From positions 1 to 29,365 of IMG/VR virus record IMGVR_UViG_3300032323_000667: DNA of 29,365 nucleotides; one strand, 5' to 3'. Below, one piece after another: positions 3,301-27,850 of the stretch. Within the stretch, counting starts at the first letter, position 1; each line of letters begins with the position of its first letter. This stretch comes from a virus. A program made the translations under genes and the position numbers. A model generated the notes under the pieces. It worked only from the letters and a program-made list of their open reading frames with translations, did no database searches and had not been told where the DNA came from.

Positions 3301-3302
3301 TA

Positions 3303-3975: not shown

Positions 3976-3983
3976 TATTTATT
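3976..3983 (-). promoter_or_regulatory. T4-type late promoter element AATAAATA
   Basis: The minus strand reads AATAAATA, differing by one base from the T4 late core TATAAATA. It overlaps the stop codon of the giant gene and could launch a separate late transcript for the 222-residue protein and the fibres. Late transcripts in T4 start a few bases downstream of the core, which would place the start near 3970 and leave the ATG at 3971 without a leader. Confidence 0.5.
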
Positions 3984-6900
3984 ATGGCAAATCAGTGCGC
4001 TTTTTATCTATGAAGTTTGCTATCGGAGTATTGTTATTCAACAATGTTACCCCGGAACTTGCAGTAGTTTCGCCTCTTTCATACCATAATTTTCCTACTT
4101 TCCTTATTATTAAAATGCGTGTTCCTGCAGGAACAACGTTGGTTAATCGTATGCTAGGATTAATACCGTCCACTGAAAACTCAGCTTCTAAAATCTTATC
4201 TGCCTGTGGACTTACGGAACCTAGCGTTTCATCGTAGACAGTTATAGGATCTTTTCTTAATCTTTTACCTGCTACAAATACTTCGATAATGTCCGAAGGA
4301 CCAAAGTCCGATGGTATCGTTGTTCTAGTCCAGTTGTTTCTAGAAGATTTTGCTGGTACAAAATCCAATGGACCTACAACCAACGAACTGCCGTCGCTGA
4401 CAAAATCTGTTCTTTCTTGCGAATCCGAATAAGGTATATTTTCAGTATAACCTAGATTTGATAATGTAGTGCCTGTAGAGTATACTGTGCCTATAGCTGT
4501 TCCTAGTGCTCCTCTTCTTAGCTGTCCTAGTACATTACCTTGCTTAGACATATACTGTATTTTTTCTCCGCTTATCTCTATGATTCCCGGAATGTTTTTA
4601 GACAGGATAGGCTCATCTAACGAGGATGCGTCATTCACTTCTATGGTTTGATCATAGTAGGTAAGATCTTTAGTTAAGAAAATACTTCCGATGGAATATC
4701 TCTTGTAATAGCTGATATTCAGCATGTCTTTGTGTATTTCAAAGGCTGTAGGTTCTTTATAAATGTTATTTCCAAATTCTATTATTTCTACCCTATCACC
4801 AGATACAGAAGGAACTTTTATATATACAACATTTCTCGGAACCTCAACTGTATACTCTGTTTCATTGATTAGTCGTTGACCGTTCAAGTATACTCTAACA
4901 TATGAAGAACTTAAAGGCGTTCTCTTAAGTTGATACGATGACTGTCCACCTGTATAGATGTCTGAGACTAGATCAAACGTAGGATATTCTGAGAACCAAG
5001 TAACATCTAATCTTGTTCCGTTTACAAGAACCACTGCTGGATCTATAACTAGAATGTCGTTTGATTCAATCGTATATTCTGTGTTGTTAATAATTTCTAT
5101 CTTGATAACATCATTTATTTCTAACACATCAGCGTTAACAATGACTTGTTCTGTAGTACCGTCATAGACATAGGCGGTAACGAAAGGTTGTAAAACATTA
5201 TTAATATATACTTTAATATCTACAGAAGTTACAATAGTTTCTGGATCTACACCAACTGGTATAATGTTGTTAGTACCATTGTAGACTGTGTAATAAGTAT
5301 CAGGTCCTTTTAGTTTTATTCCGTCTAACTCGACTATGATAGACGATTGAATCGACCCTCTTGATAGAGATACAAATCTATCTAGTTCAAATCTATTAGA
5401 AGAGCTAACAACAAAAGACTGTCTATTAACTCTTATTGCAGATTGTTGACTGCTATCTGTATCTAACGCTGCGGCAAGAGATATAATTTTTACTATTTGT
5501 CCTTGAGTAGGTACTACCGAGAACTGTACCATAGTTCTATTGGTTACAAGATCTGCTCCGGTAGTTTCTCTGATTTCGGTACTATTGATAAAACCTACAT
5601 CAACTTCAACACCGTCTACTGTTACTAACACTGATGATGTATCGGTAAACTTAGCCTTGGTTAAAAATAAAGTTGTAGTTCCGTCGCCGATAAACTCACT
5701 GTAGTCAAGCAATGCTGCGCCACCATAACCTATGGCAACTATTTCTATTACTTTATCAACCTGAGGGGCTGTATCAAAAACTATTTCGTTGGTGGCAAAA
5801 TCAATCGTATAGTCAGCAGTGCTGTCATCAGTATAATCATATCTAATCTTATCTACATAGACTGCTACAGATTGTGAATCTATTATTTCTAGACCGATCG
5901 AATATCTTGTGGTTGATCCATCGGATTTAATCACGTGCATCTGTAACGGTGCGGCTCCTGTAGAAGTTAACTGGAACACTTTAATAGATACACTGTCTAG
6001 CACTTGTCCCGGAATGTTTTCTTCAGGGGAAGGCACTGATTCTGGAGATATAAACTTGCCTCCATCGACTGTGATTTCATCAGCAGTTAGTCCTGTAGCA
6101 GTCACATAAGATCCAGCTACTGCCGACAAAGTTCCTCCACTGAGATTAGTGTCTAAAAGGTTAGGATCGCTGATAGATACAGATCCATCGCTTTCGAAAG
6201 GTCTGAATATAACAATATCTCCGTTGTTTAAATCAACGTATTGTTGAATATTAAATGTTGCTGTGCTACCGTCACCGACTATAGAAGGCATTTGTGCATC
6301 AGGATTTATAGCACTCGACGAATCCCAGTTATTAACATACATAGGATCATCGATCCTTACTGTACGACCTTGCCATCTTGCTCCTTTAATATAAACAGAA
6401 ATCATCTGATCTTCAATGGGAGTATAAGGTAAAGTAAAAGTCAACAGTTGCCATGTAGACGGAAACTCATCAGGGGGCTCATTGATATTAGTTACAAGAG
6501 CTTTATATGTTTTTCCATTATAACTTACAACAGATCCAGATTTCCATTCTTCTGATTGAGAATAAACTTCAGAATCAACAACAATATAATAATCTGAATT
6601 TGATTCTATACTGTCCCAACTATCTGTAAACCAAGGAAGGGCATCCCAGCCGCCTGTGATGTCAAATGTTGTGCCTTGTATTTCAACACCGCCAAAATCT
6701 ATGCCGGTCATTAGTTGTGAAACATCTTTGCCCAACATTCCTGGTTTAGGATCATAATATTTGTCGATTCGATTTACTGCATCAAATAACAAATCATTCT
6801 TTTCATAAGAGATTTCTATCAAATCCCCCTGTGCAGGAGTAATAACAAATATTAATCTACCTTTTAACAAAGTAGCGTTACCCACCTTTTGATAAAATAG

Positions 6901-9900
6901 ACTTATCGAATATTCATTTTGTAAAATAATTTGACCATTCTTAAATATTGATATCTTACTTTTATCTCTAGTTGGAGGATATTTTAGATCGAATGCCGAA
7001 ACTCGTCCAGTGGCTGTGAATGTTTCATTCTGAATAAACTGTGTGAATATTCCGTTTTTAGAGATTCTATCAAACTTAACTTGTAGATCAAAGGTTCTAG
7101 CTTTAGAGTAATCTAATATAGCTACAGCCTTGGCAATCTTCCTAGAAGCTCCCGAACCATTTCCTCCAACTAGTGTAACTGTAGGAGTTTTAGTATATCC
7201 CGATCCTATATCAAGCATCTCAATTCCAGATACTTTACCATTAGATATATAGGCTTTGGCAACAGCACCTGAACCGTTACCTTCAATTAATACCTTGGGA
7301 GGAAATGTGTATCCCGATCCCTGATTAGATATAACAATAGATGCAATACTGAATCCAACATTATCTGTCCAATACTTCCAAGGATAATCATTTAATCTAT
7401 TGAAACTTTCATTGACAGGCAATATTTTTCCATCTCTTGCAGAAAACGCTGGTGGCAAATCAAAGTCTGTTACATCTGAATTAGTATTCTCGATAGTGTC
7501 ATACCTGCTGGTATATTCTCTTACTGTTGTTCTATAAGGTTTTATTTCTTCTAGATATTTTTCGTAAGACTCAAGACTATCATTTTTATAGTTTATTTTT
7601 TGTTCAAGAGAACCTATATTGTGTATAGCATTAACAAAGCTGGTCTTAAATACCCAGTCGACTCTATTTTGTTGTTCATGTAAAACATACCTAATCGATG
7701 AAAAGAATAAGTTGTTCCATTCTACTCTAATATCGTCGATAAAAATATTTTCTTTAACAGCTTTAAAAATGTTTCTCAATTCTGTAGTAGGATTAGAATC
7801 ATAGAGATTAGCATCATAAGTTCCTACTTGATCGAATCCCAGAGCTGAGGTCGAAACATTATACAACGTATCTAATATTTCGATGGTTCCATTTTCTCTT
7901 CCTACTAGAGAATATTTTCCGTCTATTTCACCACCATCAAATCGTTCCAATACAGCCCAGCCACCTGCGCCATATTCCTTGATTCTTAATAGGTCGCCGA
8001 TATCAAGATTTACTAAAGTTTCTTGATAAAGACTAGTTATTTCAGCTACGATTCTCGATTGAGTTCCGTAGCCCTCTTTCCACCAATCAATAAACTTCCA
8101 ATACTTACGAGTATCGAATCCCTGTGTTTTTGTTCTATAAAACTGTCTACGTTGTTGATCCCAAGAATACACACTCCAGAATCCATTTAGAGTTTCATCA
8201 GATTTTACAAGAACACTATATTGCCTTACATTGGCAATGGCGGAATCATATTTTTTGCCTCGAGTAATAACTGTAGCCGACTTTACTCTTCCTTGTGTGT
8301 CTAAAGAAATAGCAGCAGTAGCTCCTTTACCGTTACCTTGTATTTCGATATACGGAGTAACTTTATAACCAAAGCCCGAATCGACAATATCTATCGTATC
8401 GATTTCTCCATCGATAACATTGACTTTTAATATTGCTTGCCTTACTCTATTTGGGAAGAAATCGCTGAGAACATCTCCTAGCTGTTGAATTTCATTGAAT
8501 GTTTCAACTGAGATATCGTATTCGTTTAACTCTAAACTTGGCTCTGGATCAACCAAAGATAGATTTTCATAGTTGATGATATCTGCAAAAGGTCTTGAAT
8601 ATAAGATTTGATTGATTCTTTGTATCGCTATTTTTAATGCTTCAAATCTATCAACAAACATTCCCTGACGAGGTCTATACAAGATTCCATATCGTCTCTT
8701 TTCAGGAATATTAGGATCAGGAACAGCATTTCCTGTGTTGTCAAAACCAACTAAACTGTCAATCCATTTATTTTCCACTGACTCTGAAGGTAAGCTGTCT
8801 GCTACACCTTCTGAAACCAACTGATATTCTTTGTGTACAAGATTCAACTGCTCATTGTTTGCGAACTCAATGTTTAACAGATTATTAGTAGAACTAAGTT
8901 TACCAACAATGTTATAAGCTAAGATCTTATCAGAGTCAACAAATGCTACCATAGGCAACCCCGACGATGCCGGATTTTCTATTATATTAGCAACATCAGC
9001 AGCTGATATTTTTCTAGATACATTATCTGTAGGTACTATGGTGCTGCTCTTAACCCAATAGTAATATAGTGTATCCGACGCTTCGCCGGTTGTTGCATTT
9101 GTAAGAACTTTTACTGAATACACATCATCATTGGGATATAACGGCTGGCCGCTGATTCCATTTGACAATCCGTCTACTGTATCGGCTAATGCACTCCATT
9201 CGCTAGGTAGTAATCTAGTTTCAATCCATTCGTATACATCAACAGATGCACCGTTTGCAAGTTTATTCCAGTTACCTATTCTGTAAGAAAGATCCCCTTG
9301 CTCATAGTAAATCCATTTGGCAGTAGATATATTCCACCATAACATTCCTACATTTTTAGAGAACCAGGCTGTATCTTGATCTACAATAACTTGATCAGAT
9401 CCAATAGTGTAAGTCGCTGGATCATATGGAACTTTGTATTTTATTTCTTGGTCAGCTATTCCTAGTATTTTCAACTTTGCAGAATCAATAACTGATACAT
9501 CTTCAATCTTAGTATCTCTGTCGTCATCGATCAATCTGATGTTTCTAACTAGAGAAATGTCTGTTAGAGGTTCTTGTTTTGCTAAAACAGTTATCGGTTC
9601 TATAGAAGAATTTTTTCTAAATGTTCTAACAGTTCCGGCAGGTGCGCCATTGACTTTATATTCCGGCGACCCGACAACTGTCACTGAACTAGTTGTGTCT
9701 ACTGCATAACCAAAGGATTCGTCTGGAGCAAGAGTGGCTTCTAATTTTTCAGCTAGTAAGTATCTTCCATTTACTCTTTCAAACACATAAACTTGTCCAG
9801 TAAATCCTACAAACTCAGAAAATACTGTTCTTCCTTCATCGAAGGTGGTATTGTCATCGAAGTAATAATAATCTCTGAAGCCTGCATTTTTTGCACCAAC

Positions 9901-12900
9901 TACAAGTTTATCAGCAGCAGAAGAAATGCTGATGCTTGAGCCAAATAATATATTGTTGTATTCTTCAAAAACCTGAACACGCTGTTTGAGTCTCCACTGA
10001 GGAGTTGTCAGCGAGGCAGAGCTGAGAACATACACGACACCTTGATTTTGCAAATCGGTGTCTGCATAAGGACTGCCAATAACAATATTCAGACCAGAGG
10101 CGTCGATGTCTAACGAATATCCTAGAGCGTCGCCAAGTTGAACGATTGCATCGCCAGTTTCCCCTGTATCGTTAATATCAACTAAAGAATCAGTCGATAT
10201 AGTTTGTCTTAAAACATATCTGTTATTTGTCGATCTTTGATAGATATAAACCTTACCTGAAGGATATGTTGTGCTATCACCGACATTTATCCAAGGATGT
10301 CCTTGATTAGGCCTTTGATTGTAACTTCTTATGTTTGAATCTTCGGGTACTGCACCAGATCCAAGATTTTCTAACCTATGATAAAATCCTTGATATTTGA
10401 CAACATCGCCTTCGAGGTATTCGTAGTCTGGTCTCCATAGTCCTCTATATTTCGGAAAATATTGACCGTCACTGTTAGGAGTACCTATGGCTAATATCGA
10501 ACCGTCTTTGTTCATTGCCATAGAAGTTCCAAACTGATCACCGTCTTTAGTTAGTTCGGCAATATCTTCCGGAGTTAATATTCCGCTAGTTAATGTTGAC
10601 CCGTCGTCAGTAAGAGCTGCATTAGTCGGCAAAGAAACATGAGTAGATATAGGATCAATCTTTATCCAGTCCACAGAATCGACCGTGATAGAACTACCGT
10701 CACCGGTAGTACTATCAGCTATACATCTCCACAGACTTCCATCATACCAAACAATGGATCCTTCGTAGTAGGCTGTAAGGCCAGACGGATCATACACTCC
10801 GGCATAGTTATAATCAAAATGCATTTGCCATTCGTTATTTGTATATCTGAATAGATATACTCTGCCTCTTTCATCTAAGGATCCAGGAGCAGATACACTC
10901 ATCCAATAATCACTTCCGTCTTTGCTAATAGAAACGTTGCTGGCAAATCTTTCGTTAATAGCAGGTCTTGGAGATAATATTGTTTTTCTTAGACTCCACT
11001 GCTGACCTGTCCATAGATACAAGAACAAGATACCTTGGTTACGATGTCCTTGGCTGTTGCCTTCTGAGTTAGGTTCTAATAATGTTATCGGATTCCAATC
11101 ATCGGATTGGATGTTTATTGTGCTGCCGTCGCCGACAACTATTTTATTTGCTCTCCACAACACACCTGCTTCTAAAACAACATCTCCAGGTTCGTAAGTC
11201 ACTGTGGTTGAAAACTCTCCTACAAAGTCGCTTATGATACCAGATGCCAACGGAGCTCCCACAGCTAACCATTTATTGTCAGGACTTATCGCTAATGATT
11301 GACCAAAACTTCTGTCTAATCTGTTAGCATAGGTTGCCTCAGGAACAATGATCTCTTTAATATGAAGTCCGGCAGTTCCTTCAATGTAAGTCATTATCAA
11401 TGATTGAACTGGGATACTTGTGATAGTTTGCAATAACAACTCAGCGTAGACTACCGAAGATCCTGTTCGTTCTGGTGCTGTTGTTCCGTAATCTACAATC
11501 TGTTTACCAGAATAAACTTTATTTTTCTCTATGACTGACCATCTGTTATTTTGATCTTTGTCAATCCACAATATCGATTTATTCGCTAATAGAGCAAAGT
11601 CTTCTTCGTTAACATCTTCAACTACATTGTATCTTGCGTTTTTAACTTCGAAGATTCTAACAGCAGTACTAGAATCTACTTCCGGAGCTTGAGAACCCTC
11701 AGGGACTTCGATATCAACTTTGGTTATATCTTTAGATACAACTTTAAAGAATCCTTCTAAGTTAGGAACATTTTTTATACCTATGTATTGATCAATGTCC
11801 AGTGCATGTCTTCTATTAAATGTCAGTGTTACAATGTTTCCAGTTTTTTCTGCCGCAACTATACTTAAAAGAGGAACAGTCGAAATCCTAAACACTCCCC
11901 AAGAATTTTTATAGAATGTAACGTATACGTGATCCTGTTCTCTCACTGATCGAACATCGATCGTTGACATTTCTTCTATGCTTGATATGATAAAATCAAC
12001 TTGGTCTAATTTTACATAACCTGCTGTTTGTATTGTTTGATAGTCTTTGGAAATAATAGCAGGTGTGAACGGAGAATCGGCAATAGTAAATTTAGATCCA
12101 GTGACTCTAATATATTGATCTGAAACGCTCGAAGGTACAGAATTTACAAATAGTATCGGCTGAGGATCTATGGCAAAGTCAGTCTTGGCTAGCTGGAACT
12201 CTATTTCTCTATATTGATTTTTACCACCTAGATCACCTACTCTAATAGCCCATTCTTCGTTCAATATAATACTATCTGTATCGGTCTTTGACAGTTTGTC
12301 AAAGATCTTTCTTGCAGCATTTATTGTTCCTTTATCTCGAATAAATCCTTGATAAAGATTAAACTGTGTTACTTCGTCTTCAGATAAATTTTGTAGATAG
12401 TCTCTAGTCTGATAACCTATAGCATGTCTTCCTAGCATTTTTTGACTGGATTGTAATCCGTCACTGTCTAGGCTATAAAAATCATCGAACTGATTTACTC
12501 TATAATCGAAGTTAGGAATAAGACCCTTGCTAGGAACAAGATCTAACAACGACCATTGAGCATTGTCAAAATCTTCTCCGCTGGTGTGATTTTTCTGAGA
12601 TGTGTAAGATATTCCCTTATAAGAAACAATGTCTCCTAATCTGTAATCAACAAATGGTTGCCAATCTCTAATATTAACTGCATCGTATATAAATCCAGGG
12701 CTAGTATAATCACCGTCCCAGTCTACAGTTCTAAACCCTCTTACTTTAATTCTTTCTTGTCGATAACCCGAAGTTTGATCATAGATCACATCATTGAAAA
12801 CTGTTCTGTCGTCAAAGATCGCAACGTGTTCTTTTAACACCTGATACATTTTAATAAAATAGATACCATCGTCGGTGTTGGTAGATTCAATGATTATTTT

Positions 12901-15900
12901 CTGAAACTCTCGTTTAACATTGATAAACTCAGGAGCGAGAGGAGTTCCGTCGCTTCTGTAGATTTGATAGTCATAGAAGCTATCTAAGAGATTATCAAAA
13001 ACTCCTATTTGAAAACTAAACTGAACTTTGTCTGCAGAAGGGCTAAGTGTTAGTAAACTGCTTTCGGCCCAGTTATGCTGAGTCCAGTACATAAATTCTT
13101 TGCAAGAAGTTGTCCAGTCTTTAGCGGATTTTAGTTCTGTGTCATAGCCATCAAAGATAAATCCTTTTGATATTAGATATTTTTCATAGCCTAATAAAAA
13201 GTCTACTACTTCCTGTATTGAAGTTAACACAGTACCATAGGTCATAGTGAGTAGTGTATCGGTAAAGGATCTTCTCTTGTAAGCCTGAACTGCTCCTTTT
13301 ACAGGGAGCCTAGGAACCTTTTGCCATTGCTGATTATCAAAGTTTGTATCGGCCTGATGGCTTCTTAAGCTTCTGTAATACTCGCCTCTATATCTTACAA
13401 TGACTCCATTGCCGTAAAACTTTTCAGGAGTCCATTCTAAGAATCCTTCGCTTACGCCGCCCACTGTCATTAACGGATCTGCAACAGATTTTACTGGATC
13501 ATAGTATCTAAAGTTCGGATCAAATAAATCGTATCCAGAAATACGATATCCGTTATTTCGTTTTTCAATAATAACCGCAGCATAGGTTATTGTGTCAATA
13601 GGAACGCTTTTATTAAAAATAATCTGTTGATTTTCTTGAGGAATAAAAATACTAGAAGTTGATGATTTAGGACTCTTACTGTCTAATAAAAACTTTTGTT
13701 GTTCCTGATCAACAAAACCAGACAACCTGTGAGTCAACGCTACATCTATTCCGGATAGTTTTTCTGTAAAAATATCAGTAGATAGATTTTGATTTTTTAG
13801 ATATTGTTTGACAAGATAGCTGACATTTAAAGAACTTTGAGAATAGATATCTTTTACTGTGATGAATAAATTATTATCACCAAAAACTTTTTGTCCTAGT
13901 CTATTTTCTGCAACGATTCCTTTAGACAATGCATAACTGATAAACTCAAAAGGATTTAATAATGCTAGAGCTATAATCACAGCATAAGGATATTCGCTGC
14001 CGATATGCCATGCATTTTCAATTGGAGATATGTCGCCTAATCTAAAACTTCCTTGATTGTTAACTAATACAAAATCTCTAGCTAGATTTGAATCTAGCGG
14101 ACTTAAAAGATTTCCGTCTCCGTCAACTGGAATATGATTTATTAATCCGGGTCGAGCATATCTAGATTTGATTCCTGCTCTCGGACCTCTTTTAATGATA
14201 CCTGCTTCGAGATCTTCCCATAACAATAAGTTACCTCTTGTGTAAGGGGCTGGTCCGTACTCGCTTTCCCACCAATCTGGCTGTTCGCTGAATCCTAACA
14301 TTTCCCAAGGACAGGTGTGTGGTCTATCTGTATCGTAGAACCACTTGTAAACACCTCTCCACCATCCTGGCAGATTTTGTGTCTGCGTCGGATCGGTCAT
14401 ATTTGTGTAGGTGTAGGTAAAACTTTCTTGGCTATCGAAATATGTGTTAGTAACGTAATCTAGGTTGGTATCAGATATCCATGCTAGGAATTCTCTGTTA
14501 ATGATAGGATCAATAGACTCCTTATTCCAAATAGAATTTTTGTAGTATCCTCCTAAAATTCTATCATTGTCATAGAGGTTTTCATCATACTGGAGTTTTA
14601 TATTATTGTAAATTCTTTTTTCAAGTTCCAATAATAAATCATCTCTATAGTCACCAAATGCTGTGATTTTGCTACCATCGTGGCCTTCGATCATTTCCTT
14701 TGGCGTGAGGTACGTATCGTCTAGATATTTTCTAGGCTTGTATTTTTTATACAATCCCATTTTAGTAGGGGTTGGAGGAATATGATTAAACTCAGTGGTC
14801 ACATATTCTCTGATTTCAATATTATTACCTAGAGATAACGGTTTATCGATTGTAATAAATCCAAGTGTTTCGTTGAACTGATAGTCGTATCCATAGAGTA
14901 GTTGTTCACCGTCAATGTAAACATACACAGCACGATTACTTTGTGTTTGCAAAGAAAACGGTTGGCTCAATGCGAATACATTTATTCCAATATCTTCGAC
15001 TTCATATTCAATTTTAGAATATGCGCCATTACCAATCATGTCTGATCCAGCGAAAGAATCTGACTGTTTTTTAACCTTGGTTATTTCTTTAAGAATCTGA
15101 TCTACAAAGTCTACAGTAGTTTGATCGTAATAAAGCTCTTCGGCAAGTTTTAAGAATGTATTTTTAAAATCAGAATAAGATTTTTTAGCGTACTTGATCG
15201 CTTTGATGACATTCATTTGTCTGTCTGCTAACAGAGACAATGTTACCGGAGCAAGATTGGCATGTTTTAAAAATCTTTTAGAAAATTTCTGATAGCCGTC
15301 TAGATCTCTAAGATTTCCAACTCCTGGAAACTTTCCAGAAAAACTATCATAAAAATCTATCCCGGACTGTATGTGATCACTAGCTTGACCAAAGGTAAAA
15401 AATCCTATTTCTTCGTTTAAGGGATTTTTTTCTAACCCTACTGGAAACTCGTAGTATCCCTGATCCGGCGGAACATCGGCAAATATTTTAACTGAAATAG
15501 CATCGCCCTTGACGAACGATTTATTAAAGATAAATCTATTTTTAGATCTCACATAGGAATCAGTTATTCTTATTCCGTTAAGATAGAAATAAATTTCTCC
15601 GGAAACAGCTTCAAAATCAGACCAGTTCACTGAGTTTAAAGTAACTTCAGAAGTCGATCGATCTAGAACTGCGTAATCTAATATAGGCTGTAGATATTTC
15701 TTTTCAGTTTTTACCCAAGCATTGTCATATTCGTCCGATACATGGAAATAATAAAAACCAGAAGAGACTTTTTCTGTTGCAACTGATTTATTTTTCTCAT
15801 AGTTGAACTTTTGAATATCCCAATCAAACTCGAACTGAATATCCCCTACGTTATCAATATTAAGATAACTTATAGGAAATCCCAGTTCTTTATCAACAAC

Positions 15901-17802
15901 TAATCCCGTACCGCGTTTATAACTGAATATTTCTGTTCCAGCGAAGCTAGTTACCGGATATTTTAATTTGTCAGAAAGACTGTCTAGGTCGTTGTCAAAA
16001 ACATCAAACAATGGTTCTTGATTTACCTTGGTTTTTACCTGAGATTCTTTCCATTGTTCTCCGTCATACCAGAACATCTTTCCTTGATTTTGATTTCCTC
16101 GCTTTATTAAAACAACTTCGCCTTTATTAGAAATGCTATCAGTAGTTTCTCTTAATGCGATTTGTTTTCTTCCATTTTGCATAATGAAAGTTACTTGGTA
16201 TATTCTATTATTGGCTAAAGTATCTTTGTCAGCTATAACAAGTATTCTCGATCCTTCGAATAACTGAATACCGTCGATACTATAACCTTGGCTACCTTCA
16301 ATTTTAGAAAAGACATCGTCTGTGAAATCATCAACAAAATCTATGTTTTCTTTAGCGACAGACCCGTGATTGAATAGCTGAAGATTTGACTTGAACTCTA
16401 TGATAGGTCGTTTGGCTCTAGCGGCTTCATCAAAGTCAAAGTCCGATCCGGATAGTTTACTAGAATATTGTAAAACGTCTCTATGGAACCAACGATTATA
16501 TCGACTCCATGGGTTTCTATCTTGACTGCTTTTTGCGATCGTGATATAATCTTTAGATGCAGGATACAGTGTAGCATCATCAAATGGGACGGCGTCGAAA
16601 CCGTCATTATCAAAGAATATTTCTGGAGTGTTTTGATTAAAAGGCGGAATGACTAAATCGTCTATCAGAGTCAATGATATTCCCGATCCTACTCCCTCGA
16701 CTAACCAGTTACTTTTAGCATACTTCTCAGGAGATACTTGACCTCCAAAGTTTACTACTAGTCCATTAGTGAAAGCTATATTGTTGCTACTAGTATATGT
16801 GGACTTTCCTAGTATCTCTGCGTCAATGTCGATCTTGCTGTTTGATTCGATATCTGCGACAATGATTCTACCAAACCTATCTGGGTCGGTAGGACTTTGA
16901 TAGTATAAAATATCAGGAGCATCTAAGGGAACTTCAAATGTGATTGTTCCGTTCACTATGCCATTATTGGTTATTCCCTTGTTATAATCAATAACGCTGT
17001 CGACTGTAGATGTTTCAATGTATTCCCAGTCTTGAGAATCTTTATCGATAGTACTACCATCTCCTGCTCCGATATCTCTAACAGCTCTCCATAGCGATCC
17101 GTCGAAGATGACATAGGTGCCTGTCTTGTAGGCTCTGTCCGGATCATATATCAAAGATCCTGTATCATAGTTAATGCGGATAGTCAATCCGTTATTCGGT
17201 ACATTGACTATAAACTTATAGGTCTGTCCCCTATATAATGTTAACGTGGGATTGTTTGTTATACCATCTGGATAAAATACATAGGTCTCAGTTTCGCCAA
17301 GTTTAACTCTGTATGTGCTGATAACATTTTGTGCTTGACCTAAAACTCTAACAGCCGTCGGTCCGGCAGGAACCCAATAATATTCTCTATAGTTAATAAA
17401 CTTATCCCAGTCAATAGGTGGGTTCCAGCTATAATGTTCTTGTTCGGTAACTAAGTCGTCTCTTTCTTCGTCATTTCCAAAAAATCTAACAATATTTTTA
17501 AAATCTAAATAATCATAAAAATTTTCTACCTGTTCGTTTTTCTTAAAAACTACTCCGGGTTCTAACTGATATCTACTTCTTAAGGTAGCATCAGTGTCTA
17601 GATAAACATCAGATCCTTTGAATGTTTTTCCATATCTCTTTCCTACATAACCAACTGTTTTTTCTAAAGTGCCAGGTTGTATAAACGCATCAATACTACC
17701 GGATAAAAACTTATCGTTGGCATCTGTTTGAAAAATTGTAGGTAAGAAATCTACGGTTCTTCTAATAGGTATTCCGCTTCTTGGATATACTTTGTCTTCC
17801 AT
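3982..17802 (-). CDS. Giant modular virion/baseplate protein (4606 aa)
   Basis: This single uninterrupted frame would make a protein of roughly 0.5 MDa. The start is backed by AGGA at 17809-17812, 6 nt before the ATG; gp6 stops 3 nt upstream. Visible architecture: an N-terminal region (about 19-170) with FLPTIFQTDAN and SWNPPIDWDKFINY, of a type I associate with very large structural proteins of marine T4-like phages; carbohydrate-binding-like modules near 217-264, 1452-1498, 1709-1755, 2195-2239, 2335-2384, 2454-2508 and 3745-3789; a Trp-rich block near 1141-1185 (GWWRGVYKWFYDTDRPHTC); an FG-GAP-type propeller near 2164-2731; GxGY glycine repeats near 3129-3195 and 3485-3564; and a C-terminal run of beta units from about 3790. 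It occupies the place of T4 genes 7-11. A baseplate or periphery role in host contact is inferred, since no part aligns by eye to gp7 or gp8. Predominant beta content argues against a tape measure. Confidence 0.85.
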   Translation of the reverse strand: MEDKVYPRSGIPIRRTVDFLPTIFQTDANDKFLSGSIDAFIQPGTLEKTVGYVGKRYGKTFKGSDVYLDTDATLRSRYQLEPGVVFKKNEQVENFYDYLDFKNIVRFFGNDEERDDLVTEQEHYSWNPPIDWDKFINYREYYWVPAGPTAVRVLGQAQNVISTYRVKLGETETYVFYPDGITNNPTLTLYRGQTYKFIVNVPNNGLTIRINYDTGSLIYDPDRAYKTGTYVIFDGSLWRAVRDIGAGDGSTIDKDSQDWEYIETSTVDSVIDYNKGITNNGIVNGTITFEVPLDAPDILYYQSPTDPDRFGRIIVADIESNSKIDIDAEILGKSTYTSSNNIAFTNGLVVNFGGQVSPEKYAKSNWLVEGVGSGISLTLIDDLVIPPFNQNTPEIFFDNDGFDAVPFDDATLYPASKDYITIAKSSQDRNPWSRYNRWFHRDVLQYSSKLSGSDFDFDEAARAKRPIIEFKSNLQLFNHGSVAKENIDFVDDFTDDVFSKIEGSQGYSIDGIQLFEGSRILVIADKDTLANNRIYQVTFIMQNGRKQIALRETTDSISNKGEVVLIKRGNQNQGKMFWYDGEQWKESQVKTKVNQEPLFDVFDNDLDSLSDKLKYPVTSFAGTEIFSYKRGTGLVVDKELGFPISYLNIDNVGDIQFEFDWDIQKFNYEKNKSVATEKVSSGFYYFHVSDEYDNAWVKTEKKYLQPILDYAVLDRSTSEVTLNSVNWSDFEAVSGEIYFYLNGIRITDSYVRSKNRFIFNKSFVKGDAISVKIFADVPPDQGYYEFPVGLEKNPLNEEIGFFTFGQASDHIQSGIDFYDSFSGKFPGVGNLRDLDGYQKFSKRFLKHANLAPVTLSLLADRQMNVIKAIKYAKKSYSDFKNTFLKLAEELYYDQTTVDFVDQILKEITKVKKQSDSFAGSDMIGNGAYSKIEYEVEDIGINVFALSQPFSLQTQSNRAVYVYIDGEQLLYGYDYQFNETLGFITIDKPLSLGNNIEIREYVTTEFNHIPPTPTKMGLYKKYKPRKYLDDTYLTPKEMIEGHDGSKITAFGDYRDDLLLELEKRIYNNIKLQYDENLYDNDRILGGYYKNSIWNKESIDPIINREFLAWISDTNLDYVTNTYFDSQESFTYTYTNMTDPTQTQNLPGWWRGVYKWFYDTDRPHTCPWEMLGFSEQPDWWESEYGPAPYTRGNLLLWEDLEAGIIKRGPRAGIKSRYARPGLINHIPVDGDGNLLSPLDSNLARDFVLVNNQGSFRLGDISPIENAWHIGSEYPYAVIIALALLNPFEFISYALSKGIVAENRLGQKVFGDNNLFITVKDIYSQSSLNVSYLVKQYLKNQNLSTDIFTEKLSGIDVALTHRLSGFVDQEQQKFLLDSKSPKSSTSSIFIPQENQQIIFNKSVPIDTITYAAVIIEKRNNGYRISGYDLFDPNFRYYDPVKSVADPLMTVGGVSEGFLEWTPEKFYGNGVIVRYRGEYYRSLRSHQADTNFDNQQWQKVPRLPVKGAVQAYKRRSFTDTLLTMTYGTVLTSIQEVVDFLLGYEKYLISKGFIFDGYDTELKSAKDWTTSCKEFMYWTQHNWAESSLLTLSPSADKVQFSFQIGVFDNLLDSFYDYQIYRSDGTPLAPEFINVKREFQKIIIESTNTDDGIYFIKMYQVLKEHVAIFDDRTVFNDVIYDQTSGYRQERIKVRGFRTVDWDGDYTSPGFIYDAVNIRDWQPFVDYRLGDIVSYKGISYTSQKNHTSGEDFDNAQWSLLDLVPSKGLIPNFDYRVNQFDDFYSLDSDGLQSSQKMLGRHAIGYQTRDYLQNLSEDEVTQFNLYQGFIRDKGTINAARKIFDKLSKTDTDSIILNEEWAIRVGDLGGKNQYREIEFQLAKTDFAIDPQPILFVNSVPSSVSDQYIRVTGSKFTIADSPFTPAIISKDYQTIQTAGYVKLDQVDFIISSIEEMSTIDVRSVREQDHVYVTFYKNSWGVFRISTVPLLSIVAAEKTGNIVTLTFNRRHALDIDQYIGIKNVPNLEGFFKVVSKDITKVDIEVPEGSQAPEVDSSTAVRIFEVKNARYNVVEDVNEEDFALLANKSILWIDKDQNNRWSVIEKNKVYSGKQIVDYGTTAPERTGSSVVYAELLLQTITSIPVQSLIMTYIEGTAGLHIKEIIVPEATYANRLDRSFGQSLAISPDNKWLAVGAPLASGIISDFVGEFSTTVTYEPGDVVLEAGVLWRANKIVVGDGSTINIQSDDWNPITLLEPNSEGNSQGHRNQGILFLYLWTGQQWSLRKTILSPRPAINERFASNVSISKDGSDYWMSVSAPGSLDERGRVYLFRYTNNEWQMHFDYNYAGVYDPSGLTAYYEGSIVWYDGSLWRCIADSTTGDGSSITVDSVDWIKIDPISTHVSLPTNAALTDDGSTLTSGILTPEDIAELTKDGDQFGTSMAMNKDGSILAIGTPNSDGQYFPKYRGLWRPDYEYLEGDVVKYQGFYHRLENLGSGAVPEDSNIRSYNQRPNQGHPWINVGDSTTYPSGKVYIYQRSTNNRYVLRQTISTDSLVDINDTGETGDAIVQLGDALGYSLDIDASGLNIVIGSPYADTDLQNQGVVYVLSSASLTTPQWRLKQRVQVFEEYNNILFGSSISISSAADKLVVGAKNAGFRDYYYFDDNTTFDEGRTVFSEFVGFTGQVYVFERVNGRYLLAEKLEATLAPDESFGYAVDTTSSVTVVGSPEYKVNGAPAGTVRTFRKNSSIEPITVLAKQEPLTDISLVRNIRLIDDDRDTKIEDVSVIDSAKLKILGIADQEIKYKVPYDPATYTIGSDQVIVDQDTAWFSKNVGMLWWNISTAKWIYYEQGDLSYRIGNWNKLANGASVDVYEWIETRLLPSEWSALADTVDGLSNGISGQPLYPNDDVYSVKVLTNATTGEASDTLYYYWVKSSTIVPTDNVSRKISAADVANIIENPASSGLPMVAFVDSDKILAYNIVGKLSSTNNLLNIEFANNEQLNLVHKEYQLVSEGVADSLPSESVENKWIDSLVGFDNTGNAVPDPNIPEKRRYGILYRPRQGMFVDRFEALKIAIQRINQILYSRPFADIINYENLSLVDPEPSLELNEYDISVETFNEIQQLGDVLSDFFPNRVRQAILKVNVIDGEIDTIDIVDSGFGYKVTPYIEIQGNGKGATAAISLDTQGRVKSATVITRGKKYDSAIANVRQYSVLVKSDETLNGFWSVYSWDQQRRQFYRTKTQGFDTRKYWKFIDWWKEGYGTQSRIVAEITSLYQETLVNLDIGDLLRIKEYGAGGWAVLERFDGGEIDGKYSLVGRENGTIEILDTLYNVSTSALGFDQVGTYDANLYDSNPTTELRNIFKAVKENIFIDDIRVEWNNLFFSSIRYVLHEQQNRVDWVFKTSFVNAIHNIGSLEQKINYKNDSLESYEKYLEEIKPYRTTVREYTSRYDTIENTNSDVTDFDLPPAFSARDGKILPVNESFNRLNDYPWKYWTDNVGFSIASIVISNQGSGYTFPPKVLIEGNGSGAVAKAYISNGKVSGIEMLDIGSGYTKTPTVTLVGGNGSGASRKIAKAVAILDYSKARTFDLQVKFDRISKNGIFTQFIQNETFTATGRVSAFDLKYPPTRDKSKISIFKNGQIILQNEYSISLFYQKVGNATLLKGRLIFVITPAQGDLIEISYEKNDLLFDAVNRIDKYYDPKPGMLGKDVSQLMTGIDFGGVEIQGTTFDITGGWDALPWFTDSWDSIESNSDYYIVVDSEVYSQSEEWKSGSVVSYNGKTYKALVTNINEPPDEFPSTWQLLTFTLPYTPIEDQMISVYIKGARWQGRTVRIDDPMYVNNWDSSSAINPDAQMPSIVGDGSTATFNIQQYVDLNNGDIVIFRPFESDGSVSISDPNLLDTNLSGGTLSAVAGSYVTATGLTADEITVDGGKFISPESVPSPEENIPGQVLDSVSIKVFQLTSTGAAPLQMHVIKSDGSTTRYSIGLEIIDSQSVAVYVDKIRYDYTDDSTADYTIDFATNEIVFDTAPQVDKVIEIVAIGYGGAALLDYSEFIGDGTTTLFLTKAKFTDTSSVLVTVDGVEVDVGFINSTEIRETTGADLVTNRTMVQFSVVPTQGQIVKIISLAAALDTDSSQQSAIRVNRQSFVVSSSNRFELDRFVSLSRGSIQSSIIVELDGIKLKGPDTYYTVYNGTNNIIPVGVDPETIVTSVDIKVYINNVLQPFVTAYVYDGTTEQVIVNADVLEINDVIKIEIINNTEYTIESNDILVIDPAVVLVNGTRLDVTWFSEYPTFDLVSDIYTGGQSSYQLKRTPLSSSYVRVYLNGQRLINETEYTVEVPRNVVYIKVPSVSGDRVEIIEFGNNIYKEPTAFEIHKDMLNISYYKRYSIGSIFLTKDLTYYDQTIEVNDASSLDEPILSKNIPGIIEISGEKIQYMSKQGNVLGQLRRGALGTAIGTVYSTGTTLSNLGYTENIPYSDSQERTDFVSDGSSLVVGPLDFVPAKSSRNNWTRTTIPSDFGPSDIIEVFVAGKRLRKDPITVYDETLGSVSPQADKILEAEFSVDGINPSIRLTNVVPAGTRILIIRKVGKLWYERGETTASSGVTLLNNNTPIANFIDKKRTDLP
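6435..6567 (-). repeat. Carbohydrate-binding-like module 7 of the giant protein
   Basis: Residues about 3745-3789 show W.SGSVVSYNGKTYKAL followed about 20 residues later by STW. This is the Y/W, G..V.Y.G..Y and terminal W pattern of short chitin/cellulose-binding modules. It is the only copy in the C-terminal third of the giant protein. Confidence 0.5.
7110..7347 (-). repeat. Tandem GxGY/P glycine repeats in the giant protein
   Basis: Residues about 3485-3564 contain two copies of a GSGYT..P.V...GNGSGA unit separated by a short strand (KVSGIEMLDI). The copies are nearly periodic, about 38 residues apart, suggesting a repetitive beta fold. Confidence 0.6.
8218..8415 (-). repeat. Isolated GxGY/P glycine repeat in the giant protein
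   Basis: Residues about 3129-3195 carry DSGFGYKVTPYIEIQGNGKG followed by a degraded second copy (RGKKYDSAIANV). It is related to the pair encoded at 7110-7347. Confidence 0.55.
9610..11313 (-). other. FG-GAP-type beta-propeller region of the giant protein, with inserted modules
   Basis: Six repeats begin near residues 2164 (SFGQSLAISPDNKWLAVGAP), 2284 (RFASNVSISKDG), 2422 (QFGTSMAMNKDGSILAIGTP), 2558 (ALGYSLDIDASGLNIVIGSP), about 2617 (FGSSISISSAADKLVVGAK) and 2695 (SFGYAVDTTSSVTVVGSP). The FG...S..I...G..L.VG.P pattern is that of FG-GAP blades. The first three intervals are 120-138 residues and each contains a carbohydrate-binding-like module (encoded at 11088-11217, 10650-10797 and 10278-10440). 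The last two intervals are 59 and 78 residues and contain none. The blade number needed for closure (six or seven) cannot be settled by eye. Confidence 0.7.
12537..13447 (-). repeat. Carbohydrate-binding-like modules 2 and 3 of the giant protein
   Basis: Residues about 1452-1498 (encoded 13305-13447) read WTPEKFYGNGVIVRYRGEYY ... NFDNQQW. Residues about 1709-1755 (encoded 12537-12680) read WQPFVDYRLGDIVSYKGISY ... DFDNAQW. These two are the closest pair among the seven modules, so a duplication is likely. About 210 residues of unassigned sequence separate them. Confidence 0.6.
17010..17152 (-). repeat. Carbohydrate-binding-like module 1 of the giant protein
   Basis: Residues about 217-264 read YDPDRAYKTGTYVIFDGSLW followed by GDGSTID...DW. 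The GDGS(S/T)I plus DW ending is shared with modules 4 and 5 but not with modules 2, 3 or 7, so two sub-types exist in one protein. Confidence 0.55.
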
Positions 17803-17805
17803 CTG

Positions 17806-20800
17806 TTATCCTGTAGTTGTTACAATAGTAGTAGGGTCTGCGTTTAGTTCGGCTGCTGATATAGAAGATACTATTTCTATATCATCAACTGTGGCTCCGC
17901 TGATTAAGATTTCATCTTGAGAACTTTGCACTTCAAATAAACTTCCAAAGACTTGATTAGGTTGATTTGGAACTATCACGATATTTGAAATGTCTGGTGA
18001 TGTTTGTGTTATAATATAGGTTGTCAACTCTGATAGATAGAATCTATCTCCAAAGTCCCAGTTGGTTGATTCAAAAAACTTATCAATAGAATTGATAATT
18101 CTAACTTTCAAATCGTTGTCATTTATTGTTCGGTTAGTGTTCTTAACAACTTTAAAGGTCGCTTGGAACTTAGAATCTGCATATTGGCCAAATAAAACCT
18201 TGTACTCTGTTGGATGATACACTATTTCATCACTGATGCTTTTTATAGAATCTAGATTAGATCCAAAAGAAATACGTAGATTATCTGTTGTAGGCGGCGT
18301 TGGTTTATTCAACGTTGCATCTTTCAGCCAGTTTCTAAATGCAGTGTCGTAGGATTTGGTCAATAGATAAACGTCGATAATATTGCTAACGCTAGGATCT
18401 ATTCTTCTGTCAACATTAGCATTGTGTGTATATTGAAAAGAAAGATCTGCTCTACCAATGTTTGCACGATATGTATTGTCAATGATAAATGTATTGGTAG
18501 ATTTATCTACTCTTTTAACCACTTGTTCATCAACATTATAAAAATAAATCAACTGACCGTCATTATAGTTTGCGATAGTTTCTAAAGTTTCTTTTTCTCT
18601 TACCAAGATAGTATCGTTAGAATTGTCTATGTATTGATAAGTTCTAATACCGTATTCGTCTATTATAGATTTGAAGAAAATATATCTTTGAGACGGGTCT
18701 TCGTTGTCTTCACCGACTATTCTTACAAACTGGTCCGGATCATCGATTACACCGTCATCATCGGTGTCGCTAAAAGATATTTTAATTTCGTTAGTTGATT
18801 GATAGCCATCTTCATATTTTATCGAATCACTTACTTCAAATATAAATGTTTGTTTTAAAGGATTTATTCTATTAAAATCTGTATTGATTCCTAATACTTT
18901 TACTTGATCCTTTACTGTTCTTCCTGTTCTAGAATCATAGATCTTTTGATTAACATCAAAATAAAATTTATTTTTTCTAATGCTGCCAAACACATATTCC
19001 ATTGATCTTACACGAACAACATATCTGTCTGGTTGTTTAACAAAAGATATTATCCACGAAGCATCAATATTATTGTTTGTTAAATCACCTGTACTACCTA
19101 ATGTAAAGTCGTCTATAAGATTAAGGTTAGAACTGGTAATGACTTTCCAACTTAGGTCATTAACATCGTATCTTAGGCCGAAGTTGACATTTTGAAATGC
19201 TAGATTAACGATTTCAGTTTCAATACTTTCTGGTAGATTAGAAACGAACTTAGGTACTATTCTAGACGCTATAGCACCTTGAGGTACGGTATCTGAAAAT
19301 TGCACCGGCCCTAGACCAGATGCCAATGCGCCGCGACCTGCGTTAGTGCCGTCACCAACAACTCTTACTACCTTAGTCCACAGATAAGATTTCTGTTGAG
19401 GATCATTTATGTTAGTATCAACCAGTGCTCCATTTTTAAATGACTTACCTGTAGGCGAAACAAACTTTATAAGAGCTTCAGAGGACAAATACTTTAATGT
19501 ATTATTAGTGTATGCACCTGTTTTTAAAAAGCTATTGTCAACGTTGTTGATAAAATAACCAGTAGACAGATTTAAAGAATCCGTTACCTGTACCCATCTT
19601 GAAGTGTCGTCAATGAAGTTTATTTTTGTATATTTTGTAAGATAAAAATTGTAGATGTCAGATTTATCAAACAACGGTTCTATGACTCTTCTAACAAAGT
19701 TTAAAATATCAATCTTAGATGTGAATTTAAAAGCTAGATTCGTTTCTACTTCGTTCTTGTAAATCATTCCATCATCGGCAAAAATATCTACACTTGAGTA
19801 TTTTCCGGTAGCATCAATGATGTCAAAGTTTCGAGATATTCCACTGCTGACTCTATTGATGGCTTTAACTTTAAGAATATCTTGAGAACTGGTCAATGGA
19901 GCAAGATTGTAGTCTTCTCCGGTGATCATTCTATTTTGAGTATAATAATTCGCAGGAGCATTAGTTCTAATCGTATCAATGTCTTCAGTTGCCGCAGCAT
20001 TGTTAACACTGGATTTTAAGCTCATGGTAATAGTTAAGGTATGTGCTGATCCAGTTTTATTGACATAAGGAACTTCGATGGTGATTCCTCTCATTTCAGC
20101 CGGAGCGATAGAATAACTTAAACCATTGCTGACTCTATAATATACTCTAAAGTTACCTTGTGGAAGGTTGCCGTAGACTCCATCAGCAAATAATAAATCT
20201 ATCTTGTCATTTTCTTTGGTTACTACAGAATAGATATTTCTATTTCCGTTGACAATACTATTATAGGCAATGTTGTTTCCAGTTACCGATGAAACCTTAG
20301 TCCACTCGGAAGTCTGTACAGCATTGGCATCTAGAGAATATAACCACACATCGCTGTTGTTTATACCCTCGGCATCAATGCTTACTATTTCGTTGCTCTT
20401 AGGAATAGCTACTTCAAAATCGGCAACTTCTAAACTTCCTTGTTTGAACAGCAAAAAGAATCCGGTGTTAGCACTGGCTGGTCCTTTACTGTCATTACGA
20501 TAGACAAAACCTAGTTGATTAGATGGAAATGGTGCTTCTTCGTAGACTGTTTCAGAATCCTTAAATGAAGTGCTGACTATTTCAAACAACATTCTTCTTC
20601 CTGCCACAGTCTTAGAAAAGCTGTAGATAGGCACGTCTGTATTTGTAGCTCTAAATCTATATTGATCTGAGTTAATACCTTGTATAACTGCTGAGCCTTG
20701 GCTTCTTCCAAACTCTGTGTTATCTGCCATTGCAGAGTTTAATATAGTTAAAAACTGTTCGCTCCAGTTAGGATTAGTTGCATCATTCCAAACAATAGTT

Positions 20801-21219
20801 TGCTGGGAGAGATTTCTTCCATTGCTGTCTAAGAGATTTTCTGTGGTCGATATAGTATCAAACTTCATTAGACCCGATGCTGGATTGTTTCGCTTGGCAT
20901 TATAGCTTAACATTCTAGCTAGTCTAAGGACACTTTCCTTACGCTCTGCTAGTTCGATAAAGTTTTCTCTAGATGCTAGGTCAATACGGAAACTGAGACT
21001 TTGTCCCATGAAAGCTATGGCGTCGATTAATGCCATATATTCCGAAGATTCGATGTAGTCGTTAAAATCTTCAGGGTAGTTTTCCCTGATATATTCGATG
21101 ATTACTCTACGAATATTTTCAAAGTCGTAGGATTTGAAATCAGCATTTTTAAATGTCTGATAAATCCTTGTCCAATCTTCGTTAAGTATAAGGTTGTTTT
21201 GTCTCGATGATGTCGTCAT
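17806..21219 (-). CDS. gp6: Baseplate wedge protein gp6 (gpJ-like family)
   Basis: The first about 120 residues match the gp6 pattern: NEDWTRIYQTFKNADFKSYD, then YPEDFNDYIESSEYMALIDA, then a helical segment with ELAERKESVLRLARMLSYNA. The wedge-core signature FADGVYGNLPQGNFRVYYRV lies near residue 345, followed by ITGEDYNLAP near 460. In T4, gp6 forms the continuous ring that joins six wedges and triggers sheath contraction. At 1137 residues it is much longer than T4 gp6 (about 660); the extra length is mainly beta-rich sequence after about residue 480. AGGA at 21227-21230 lies 7 nt before the ATG, and a late-promoter-like element lies just upstream. The gp25-gp6 neighbourhood supports the call. 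Confidence 0.92.
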   Translation of the reverse strand: MTTSSRQNNLILNEDWTRIYQTFKNADFKSYDFENIRRVIIEYIRENYPEDFNDYIESSEYMALIDAIAFMGQSLSFRIDLASRENFIELAERKESVLRLARMLSYNAKRNNPASGLMKFDTISTTENLLDSNGRNLSQQTIVWNDATNPNWSEQFLTILNSAMADNTEFGRSQGSAVIQGINSDQYRFRATNTDVPIYSFSKTVAGRRMLFEIVSTSFKDSETVYEEAPFPSNQLGFVYRNDSKGPASANTGFFLLFKQGSLEVADFEVAIPKSNEIVSIDAEGINNSDVWLYSLDANAVQTSEWTKVSSVTGNNIAYNSIVNGNRNIYSVVTKENDKIDLLFADGVYGNLPQGNFRVYYRVSNGLSYSIAPAEMRGITIEVPYVNKTGSAHTLTITMSLKSSVNNAAATEDIDTIRTNAPANYYTQNRMITGEDYNLAPLTSSQDILKVKAINRVSSGISRNFDIIDATGKYSSVDIFADDGMIYKNEVETNLAFKFTSKIDILNFVRRVIEPLFDKSDIYNFYLTKYTKINFIDDTSRWVQVTDSLNLSTGYFINNVDNSFLKTGAYTNNTLKYLSSEALIKFVSPTGKSFKNGALVDTNINDPQQKSYLWTKVVRVVGDGTNAGRGALASGLGPVQFSDTVPQGAIASRIVPKFVSNLPESIETEIVNLAFQNVNFGLRYDVNDLSWKVITSSNLNLIDDFTLGSTGDLTNNNIDASWIISFVKQPDRYVVRVRSMEYVFGSIRKNKFYFDVNQKIYDSRTGRTVKDQVKVLGINTDFNRINPLKQTFIFEVSDSIKYEDGYQSTNEIKISFSDTDDDGVIDDPDQFVRIVGEDNEDPSQRYIFFKSIIDEYGIRTYQYIDNSNDTILVREKETLETIANYNDGQLIYFYNVDEQVVKRVDKSTNTFIIDNTYRANIGRADLSFQYTHNANVDRRIDPSVSNIIDVYLLTKSYDTAFRNWLKDATLNKPTPPTTDNLRISFGSNLDSIKSISDEIVYHPTEYKVLFGQYADSKFQATFKVVKNTNRTINDNDLKVRIINSIDKFFESTNWDFGDRFYLSELTTYIITQTSPDISNIVIVPNQPNQVFGSLFEVQSSQDEILISGATVDDIEIVSSISAAELNADPTTIVTTTG

Positions 21220-21260: not shown

Positions 21261-21701
21261 TCAGATAACTGTAAGATTTTTCTTATCAAAATCAAAAGTC
21301 ATGTTTTCGCTGATATTAAAGGGCAGATAAATTATTTCAGCTTCGATCCTAACTCCCTGATCTGTGCTGTCTACTAGAACCGAGTTTACTGAAATTCTAG
21401 GATCATAGTTAATCACTGCTTCAACATCGTCTGATATCATTTGTTTTACTTCTTCAGTAAACGGTTCAAAAAGTAGATCCCAAATGACTGTTCCGAAATC
21501 TGGATTTTCTAGTTTCTGCCCTTTTCTAATATAGAAGTGATTTATAAGATCTTGCTTTACAAGATCGGCATCAAAGGCTTTAAATCCGTTTTTTGGATCT
21601 TTGCTATTAAATCCCTTGTAGGTAAAGATAGTGGAACCTTGCTGTCCAGATGATGCAAAATCTTTAGCTACGGTTTTTTGATTGTATAACTTTGTGGCCA
21701 T
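21261..21701 (-). CDS. gp25: Baseplate wedge protein gp25 (GPW/gp25 family)
   Basis: This 146-residue protein is near the length of T4 gp25 (132). The family core is visible as DLVKQDLINHFYIRKGQKLE, then NPDFGTVIWDLLFEPFTEEV at about residues 66-85, and INYDPRISV near 97-105. In T4-like phages gp25 sits at the inner edge of the wedge under the first sheath ring and initiates sheath polymerisation; the same fold occurs in type VI secretion (TssE). The ATG is preceded by AGGGA at 21709-21713 (7 nt), and the gp5 stop is 1 nt upstream, so the two are translationally linked. The N-terminal about 45 residues are polar and slightly longer than in T4. Confidence 0.95.
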   Translation of the reverse strand: MATKLYNQKTVAKDFASSGQQGSTIFTYKGFNSKDPKNGFKAFDADLVKQDLINHFYIRKGQKLENPDFGTVIWDLLFEPFTEEVKQMISDDVEAVINYDPRISVNSVLVDSTDQGVRIEAEIIYLPFNISENMTFDFDKKNLTVI

Positions 21702-27817: not shown

Positions 27818-27842
27818 TCTTACAAGTTAAAGAATGTACAAT
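27814..27842 (+). promoter_or_regulatory. Possible promoter before gp47
   Basis: TTGATC (27814-27819, overlapping the gp55 stop) and TACAAT (27837-27842) are spaced by 17 bp. The start would fall at about 27849, giving an almost leaderless gp47 message. This would fit the lack of a Shine-Dalgarno, but such matches are common in AT-rich DNA. Confidence 0.25.
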
Positions 27843-27850
27843 ATTTTAAT

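Follow-up and report, generated by a model that had tools for sequence, protein, structure and literature searches.

Does a giant phage virion protein carry a β-propeller loaded with carbohydrate-binding-like modules, and would such modules bind sugar? The question arises from a 29,365-bp virus record (IMGVR_UViG_3300032323_000667, positions 1 to 29,365), called the window here, in which an earlier note made from the sequence alone had proposed an FG-GAP propeller displaying three sugar-binding-like units on one side. We have examined the gene neighbourhood of this protein, its predicted fold, the placement of its modules and its relatives.

The giant protein and its gene neighbourhood

The segment in question (window 9610-11313) corresponds to residues 2164-2731 of a 4,606-residue protein that matches the phrog_10938 profile with an E value of 0 and 1051 bits. 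In its N-terminal part this giant shares 25-30% identity with virion proteins of PA5oct, Atu_ph07, Phosso, SCTP-2 and RaK2/BF-type jumbo phages, and the record of the PA5oct homologue, gp355, carries an ESI-MS/MS note. Its gene stands in a baseplate cluster whose order on the minus strand runs from the hub/lysozyme-like gene through the gp25-like and gp6-like genes to the giant and then to fibre-like genes.

21703..23259, minus strand: baseplate hub/tail lysozyme-like protein (phrog_13211, E 5.8e-38)
21261..21701, minus strand: baseplate wedge subunit, gp25-like (phrog_261 / phrog_43, E about 4e-15)
17806..21219, minus strand: baseplate wedge subunit, gp6-like, directly upstream of the giant (phrog_10646, E 1.7e-288; phrog_219, E 4.4e-21)
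3982..17802, minus strand: giant virion (baseplate) protein hosting the propeller, 4,606 residues (phrog_10938, virion structural protein)

Following gp6, the giant occupies the gene position of T4 gp7, and this order suggests, on positional grounds, a gp7 place at the wedge. Alignment with hhalign against seven gp7 proteins gave probabilities below 1% for all parts of the giant compared, and no gp7 was among the matches of a profile search for its solved relatives. A second AlphaFold2 model, covering residues 1500-1989, was poor (pLDDT 63.5), and the absence of T4 gp7 from its VIA list is no evidence against gp7 homology. In RaK2-type phages, whose giant protein is a distant relative, a secondary receptor binder has been proposed in another protein of the baseplate, gp098 (PMC10253068).

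Several other features of the window were recorded. Downstream of the giant lies a gene for a 698-residue fibre/collar-like protein (window 1204-3300, minus strand) with many weaker tail-fibre PHROG matches, and a late sigma factor (gp55-like) and an SbcD-like nuclease gene (window 26966-28861, plus strand) are divergent from the baseplate cluster. A defence-system profile search gave no match. The giant itself also contains a GxGY-type repeat (DSGFGYKVTPYIEIQGNGKGA) at window 7543-9510 (residues about 2765-3420, part of it near 3114-3196), which is common to phrog_438 and has a profile match to the phage depolymerase/tailspike Dpo31 (28lx_A, E 2.1e-4).

Six FG-GAP repeats in a predicted seven-bladed propeller

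Both profiles to which the earlier note had pointed, FG-GAP and CBM5/12, scored above their Pfam cut-offs on the whole giant: FG-GAP_2 with an E value of 2.2e-11 and 44.2 bits (cut-off 23), and CBM_5_12, several copies taken together, with 1.6e-21 and 76.5 bits (cut-off 26.2). In six relatives FG-GAP_2 scored 25.6-72.1 bits. A repeat HMM made from the relatives alone and run on the 4,606 residues found exactly six sites at 7.5-23.3 bits and no seventh, while only 1 of 300 segment shuffles gave any match of 5 bits or more. The six repeats span residues 2166-2697, with FG motifs at F2166, F2286, F2424, L2560, F2620 and F2697. The resulting spacings of 120, 138, 136, 60 and 77 residues reproduce the number of repeats and the first three intervals noted earlier, and correct the last two, which had been given as 59 and 78. 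No calcium-binding DxDxDG loops were spotted by eye in the window repeats (for example ISPDNKWLAVGAP and MNKDGSILAIGTP).

The AlphaFold2 model of residues 1900-2870, calculated from an alignment of 39 sequences (38 of them metagenomic relatives), had a pLDDT of 80.5 and a pTM of 0.72, the module regions being its weaker part. The top match in VIA-align is integrin αL (5e6u_A), with a Z-score of 29.7 and an rmsd of 2.9 Å over 359 residues; model residues 196-840 are aligned with it starting at integrin residue 1. The best 50 VIA rows are mostly integrin α chains (Z 27-29.7, about 360-378 residues, 2.7-3.2 Å), and the symmetric 7-bladed propeller 7bie_A fits model residues 211-832 with a Z-score of 27.2. 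Foldseek agrees with the propeller fold (9t5z_A, E 2.6e-12), and profile searches returned integrins αE, αM and α4. A sequence search with the single window propeller gave no convincing solved relative. The propeller proposed earlier is thus borne out by AlphaFold2, VIA-align and Foldseek, and the predicted structure is of the FG-GAP (integrin-type), seven-bladed kind.

9586..11520, minus strand: integrin-α-like seven-bladed β-propeller, residues about 2095-2739 (AlphaFold2, VIA-align, Foldseek)
11347..11454, minus strand: blade 1, four strands without an FG-GAP motif, residues 2117-2152 (DSSP of the model)
11245..11307, minus strand: FG-GAP repeat 1, blade 2 strands A-B, residues 2166-2186
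10825..10947, minus strand: FG-GAP repeat 2, blade 3, residues 2286-2326
10468..10533, minus strand: FG-GAP repeat 3, blade 4 strands A-B, residues 2424-2445
9991..10125, minus strand: FG-GAP repeat 4, blade 5, residues 2560-2604
9880..9945, minus strand: FG-GAP repeat 5, blade 6, residues 2620-2641
9607..9714, minus strand: FG-GAP repeat 6, blade 7, residues 2697-2732

The six blades implied earlier become seven in the model: a blade without an FG-GAP motif (about 2117-2152) lies ahead of the first repeat, and it had escaped the note, as had four further module copies in the giant. DSSP places its strands at 218-221, 226-231, 236-242 and 247-253 in model numbering, and relatives such as L051 have an FG-like repeat at this position. 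Because this four-strand unit aligns with both the integrin and the symmetric 7-bladed propeller, the predicted propeller is best counted as seven blades, blade 1 and six FG-GAP blades. A propeller of six blades, with exactly one insertion to a blade and always at an equivalent place, would account for the six recognisable FG motifs and for three modules in three successive intervals; given the additional unit, and given that module 2 follows a strand D whereas modules 1 and 3 follow a strand B, we consider it very improbable.

Modules inserted in the loops of blades 2 to 4

Each of the three long intervals contains one CBM5/12-like module, as the earlier note had claimed. Strands were assigned from DSSP and from relatives lacking the modules.

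11080..11214, minus strand: CBM5/12-like module 1, B-C loop of blade 2, residues 2197-2241
10654..10794, minus strand: CBM5/12-like module 2, between strand D of blade 3 and strand A of blade 4, residues 2337-2383
10282..10440, minus strand: CBM5/12-like module 3 (long-looped), B-C loop of blade 4, residues 2455-2507
17014..17148, minus strand: further module copy, residues 219-263
13312..13434, minus strand: further module copy, residues 1457-1497
12541..12663, minus strand: further module copy, residues 1714-1754 (VIA Z 8.5 to the phage Milano baseplate chain 8fqc_P1)
6439..6558, minus strand: further module copy, residues 3749-3788

A profile search matched the modules to the chitinase CBM 2rts. 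The CBM5/12 fold is supported structurally for a non-propeller copy (about 1711-1757; VIA Z 8.1 to 3wx7_A and 5.6 to 1ed7), the propeller copies having been folded solely inside the larger 1900-2870 model.

Interval lengths in the 39 aligned sequences argue that the modules are true insertions and not blade strands. With a module, interval 1 measures 119-164 residues, interval 2 127-549 and interval 3 117-209; in the sequences without one, which are few (3, 6 and 5, respectively) and come in part from deeper branches, the same intervals measure 72-84, 60-93 and 37-72 residues. Intervals 4 and 5 never hold a module and have medians of 59 and 79 residues. At site 2 two relatives (L042 and L027) have an apparent deletion by eye, with a remnant of the module tail left. 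No DNA-level direct repeats were found between the modules.

The modules had been placed in the first three blades, one within each. There are indeed three inserts, and modules 1 and 3 do lie within blades, but the blades concerned are 2 to 4 and module 2 sits in the stretch that joins blade 3 to blade 4. In a β-propeller, B-C and D-A loops emerge on the same side. Strand parity would thus put all three insertion points on one face, and to this extent the one-sided display proposed earlier is retained; this face would correspond to the ligand face of integrins.

Further residues, up to 418, are present in relatives at positions 2298, 2321-2324, 2343, 2406 and 2717. They amount to 395-418 residues at the equivalent of residue 2298 in L040 and L046, and to about 110-190 residues at 2321-2324, in the C-D hairpin of blade 3, in L015, L030, L048 and L012. 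The blade 3 region (2298, 2321-2324) is a hot spot for further inserted domains, and the extra residues there had no Pfam identity in the relatives scanned.

Relatives and probable order of gain

A single-sequence search for relatives in viral contigs found none; the conserved core alone gave matches. From viral contigs the core profile retrieved at least 590 relatives, and 80 of these were kept for comparison. Among the closer ones (L007-L048 and L061, most of them with a core identity above 45%), nearly all have repeats and modules at matching places, and the stretch equivalent to residues 1900-2870, between conserved flanks, ranges from 740 to 1,652 residues across the relatives. In cultured phages it is mainly the flanks that match the giant, the propeller being without a match: tblastn of the propeller against 50,697 phage records gave nothing at 1e-5 and two weak matches with E values up to 5. 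A look for host clues in genome bins yielded three distant relatives in MAG contigs and no more.

In a tree computed from the core domain and not from the propeller, the outer positions are taken by the cultured phages and by two MAG contigs, with no repeat found at the propeller site. L104 comes next, followed by L056, L081 and L082; all four have FG-GAP repeats, and in none could a module be detected in this zone. Inside these is a 40-row clade with mostly loaded propellers (SH-aLRT 100). The simplest reading of this sequence-based tree is a stepwise assembly, from no propeller through a bare propeller to a loaded one. Losses, instead of stepwise gain alone, are possible: in the sister clade, of 31 rows, few repeats can be detected and most rows have a single module or none, and the tree was built quickly and has long outer branches. 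A LamG-like domain suspected by eye at the propeller site of SCTP-2 was not confirmed by Pfam. Repeats resembling the GxGY type of the giant occupy the insertion zone in Atu_ph07 and Phosso.

Do the modules bind sugar?

The residues that carry the fold, Y662 and W696 in the numbering of B. circulans chitinase A1 (ChiA1), are kept in nearly all module copies. The title of a ChiA1 study in the reference list of PMC8449059 gives Trp687 as a chitin-binding residue; PMC8449059 itself also describes a consecutive aromatic pair for CBM5. At the three propeller sites the Trp687 position is aromatic in only 1 of 36, 1 of 32 and 0 of 34 modules (2/102 in total), so that across the family almost every propeller module has another residue or a deletion there, whereas the core copy at residue 1714 has an aromatic (Phe) there in 34 of 34. 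These positions were numbered through the chain range 655-698, with an assumed sequence for the last nine residues of the ChiA1 reference. No consecutive aromatic pair of the CBM5 type was spotted by eye in the listed modules.

Conservation was compared as well. Identity to the window is 0.41-0.47 for the modules and 0.33-0.62 for blades and flanks, so the modules are about as conserved as their surroundings and do not show the hypervariability expected of a host-specific binder. The fold is present in solved tail parts of phages Milano and 7-7-1 and cyanophage A-1(L) and in the contractile injection system (CIS) of Anabaena; a carbohydrate-binding module of the A-1(L) neck-fibre protein gp80 showed no host binding (PMC10966104). 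Since nearly all propeller modules have lost the Trp687 site, the modules recur elsewhere in the giant and solved parts of phages and of a CIS contain their fold, sugar binding by the propeller modules is not supported.

A glycan-binding receptor platform, in which the three modules bind host surface polysaccharide, would fit the CBM_5_12 and 2rts matches, the conserved core aromatics and loop insertions that share a face by parity. We regard it as unlikely in view of the near-absence of the Trp687-site aromatic, the lack of an aromatic pair on inspection by eye, the A-1(L) precedent and the lack of hypervariability. With the binding residue missing, a fold-scaffold or docking role for the modules is more likely than chitin-type sugar binding, and where virion proteins of phages are annotated as 'chitin-binding', the term may refer to a fold and not to a function.

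Proposed role of the loaded propeller

Altogether, we favour, with some reserve, an account that joins uptake of the propeller, its later loading and a platform for multivalent contacts. In one clade of large, uncultured phages of the myovirus type, the giant encoded right after gp6 would have taken up an integrin-like seven-bladed propeller in a length-variable zone flanked by two conserved halves, as sequence, relatives and predicted fold indicate. Small CBM5/12-fold modules would later have entered loops of blades 2 to 4, which is consistent with the module-less relatives and the tree. The propeller would most likely be a rigid baseplate platform repeated around the tail axis, and its loop modules would make multivalent contacts where tail and cell meet, either with the surface of the host or with fibres of the phage itself. 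Against this account stand the even conservation of modules, blades and flanks and the weaker modelling of the module regions; moreover, the path of the chain into and out of the propeller might turn the module face towards the core of the baseplate and not towards the cell.

A structural or docking role, in which propeller and modules belong to the inner scaffold of the baseplate or anchor fibres of the phage itself and make no host contact, is a serious contender that falls somewhat short of probable. It agrees with the recurrence of modules at four other places in the giant, with their fold in the Milano baseplate complex, the 7-7-1 fibres and the Anabaena CIS baseplate and cap, and with the even conservation of modules and blades. 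However, cultured homologues do without the propeller domain, which is thus not needed for the shared assembly, and the long variable insertions in the relatives' loops suggest that these loops are exposed. It is also doubtful that a phage lineage has built on its baseplate an integrin-like, one-faced adhesion head, acquired whole, then loaded with loop modules that can be exchanged, which would recognise the host as a reconfigurable platform apart from the tail fibres.

The propeller, the modules and the likely order of their gain can be read from one family of relatives, which provides a natural series for the growth of phage baseplates through inserted domains. Should the propeller touch the host, it would serve for receptor contact apart from the tail fibres, and many uncultured contigs would encode such a device.

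Comparison with known systems

Full-text literature searches found no paper that describes phage tails with FG-GAP propellers. Other phage proteins do match FG-GAP by profile or by fold, namely gp320 ('hemagglutinin') of Atu_ph07, H6WG31 of cyanophage S-TIM5 and two frames of Phosso, but these are separate proteins and not insertions in the gp6-adjacent giant. By fold match, gp320 (L094 3019-4200) is an FG-GAP propeller, and its gene adjoins tail sheath genes. The two giant frames of Sinorhizobium phage Phosso (L087; PV764938.1, about 48-69 kb), of 3,182 and 3,702 residues, hold most of its 42 FG-GAP_2 matches; the gene inspected is annotated as hypothetical.

Cultured phrog_10938 relatives (PA5oct gp355, Atu_ph07 gp180, Phosso, SCTP-2 gp140, Serratia BF gp235 and RaK2-type phages) likewise encode the protein after a gp6-like gene and share the conserved flanks, the identity of 25-30% extending over the N-terminal half; no FG-GAP propeller was found at the site, where the zone is shorter or holds other repeats (Atu_ph07, Phosso). 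The ChiA1 chitin-binding domain (1ed7), of CBM family 5/12, has the fold signature of the modules, with Y662 and W696 almost always kept, but the modules of the giant's propeller have lost the Trp687 position, show no CBM5 aromatic pair and are embedded in a virion protein. The same small fold occurs in tail, baseplate or cap proteins of Milano (8fqc_P1), 7-7-1 (9rkv_M), the Anabaena CIS (7b5h/7b5i) and A-1(L) (8kec), and we know of no propeller-loop insertion among the modules of these systems.

The closest counterpart is the integrin α chain (αL 5e6u, αM, αX, αV and α4), which has a seven-bladed FG-GAP propeller like that predicted for the giant. In αL, αM and αX an α-I domain is inserted in the propeller, a precedent for the module insertions described here. 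In contrast to the integrins, the giant is a phage baseplate protein with about 16-20% identity to them, lacks (by eye) the long DxDxDG calcium loops between FG and GAP, and has three small CBM5/12-like modules as its inserts. This predicted architecture, with modules set into the loops of an FG-GAP propeller within a baseplate protein, is well supported as a real and well-defined new variant.
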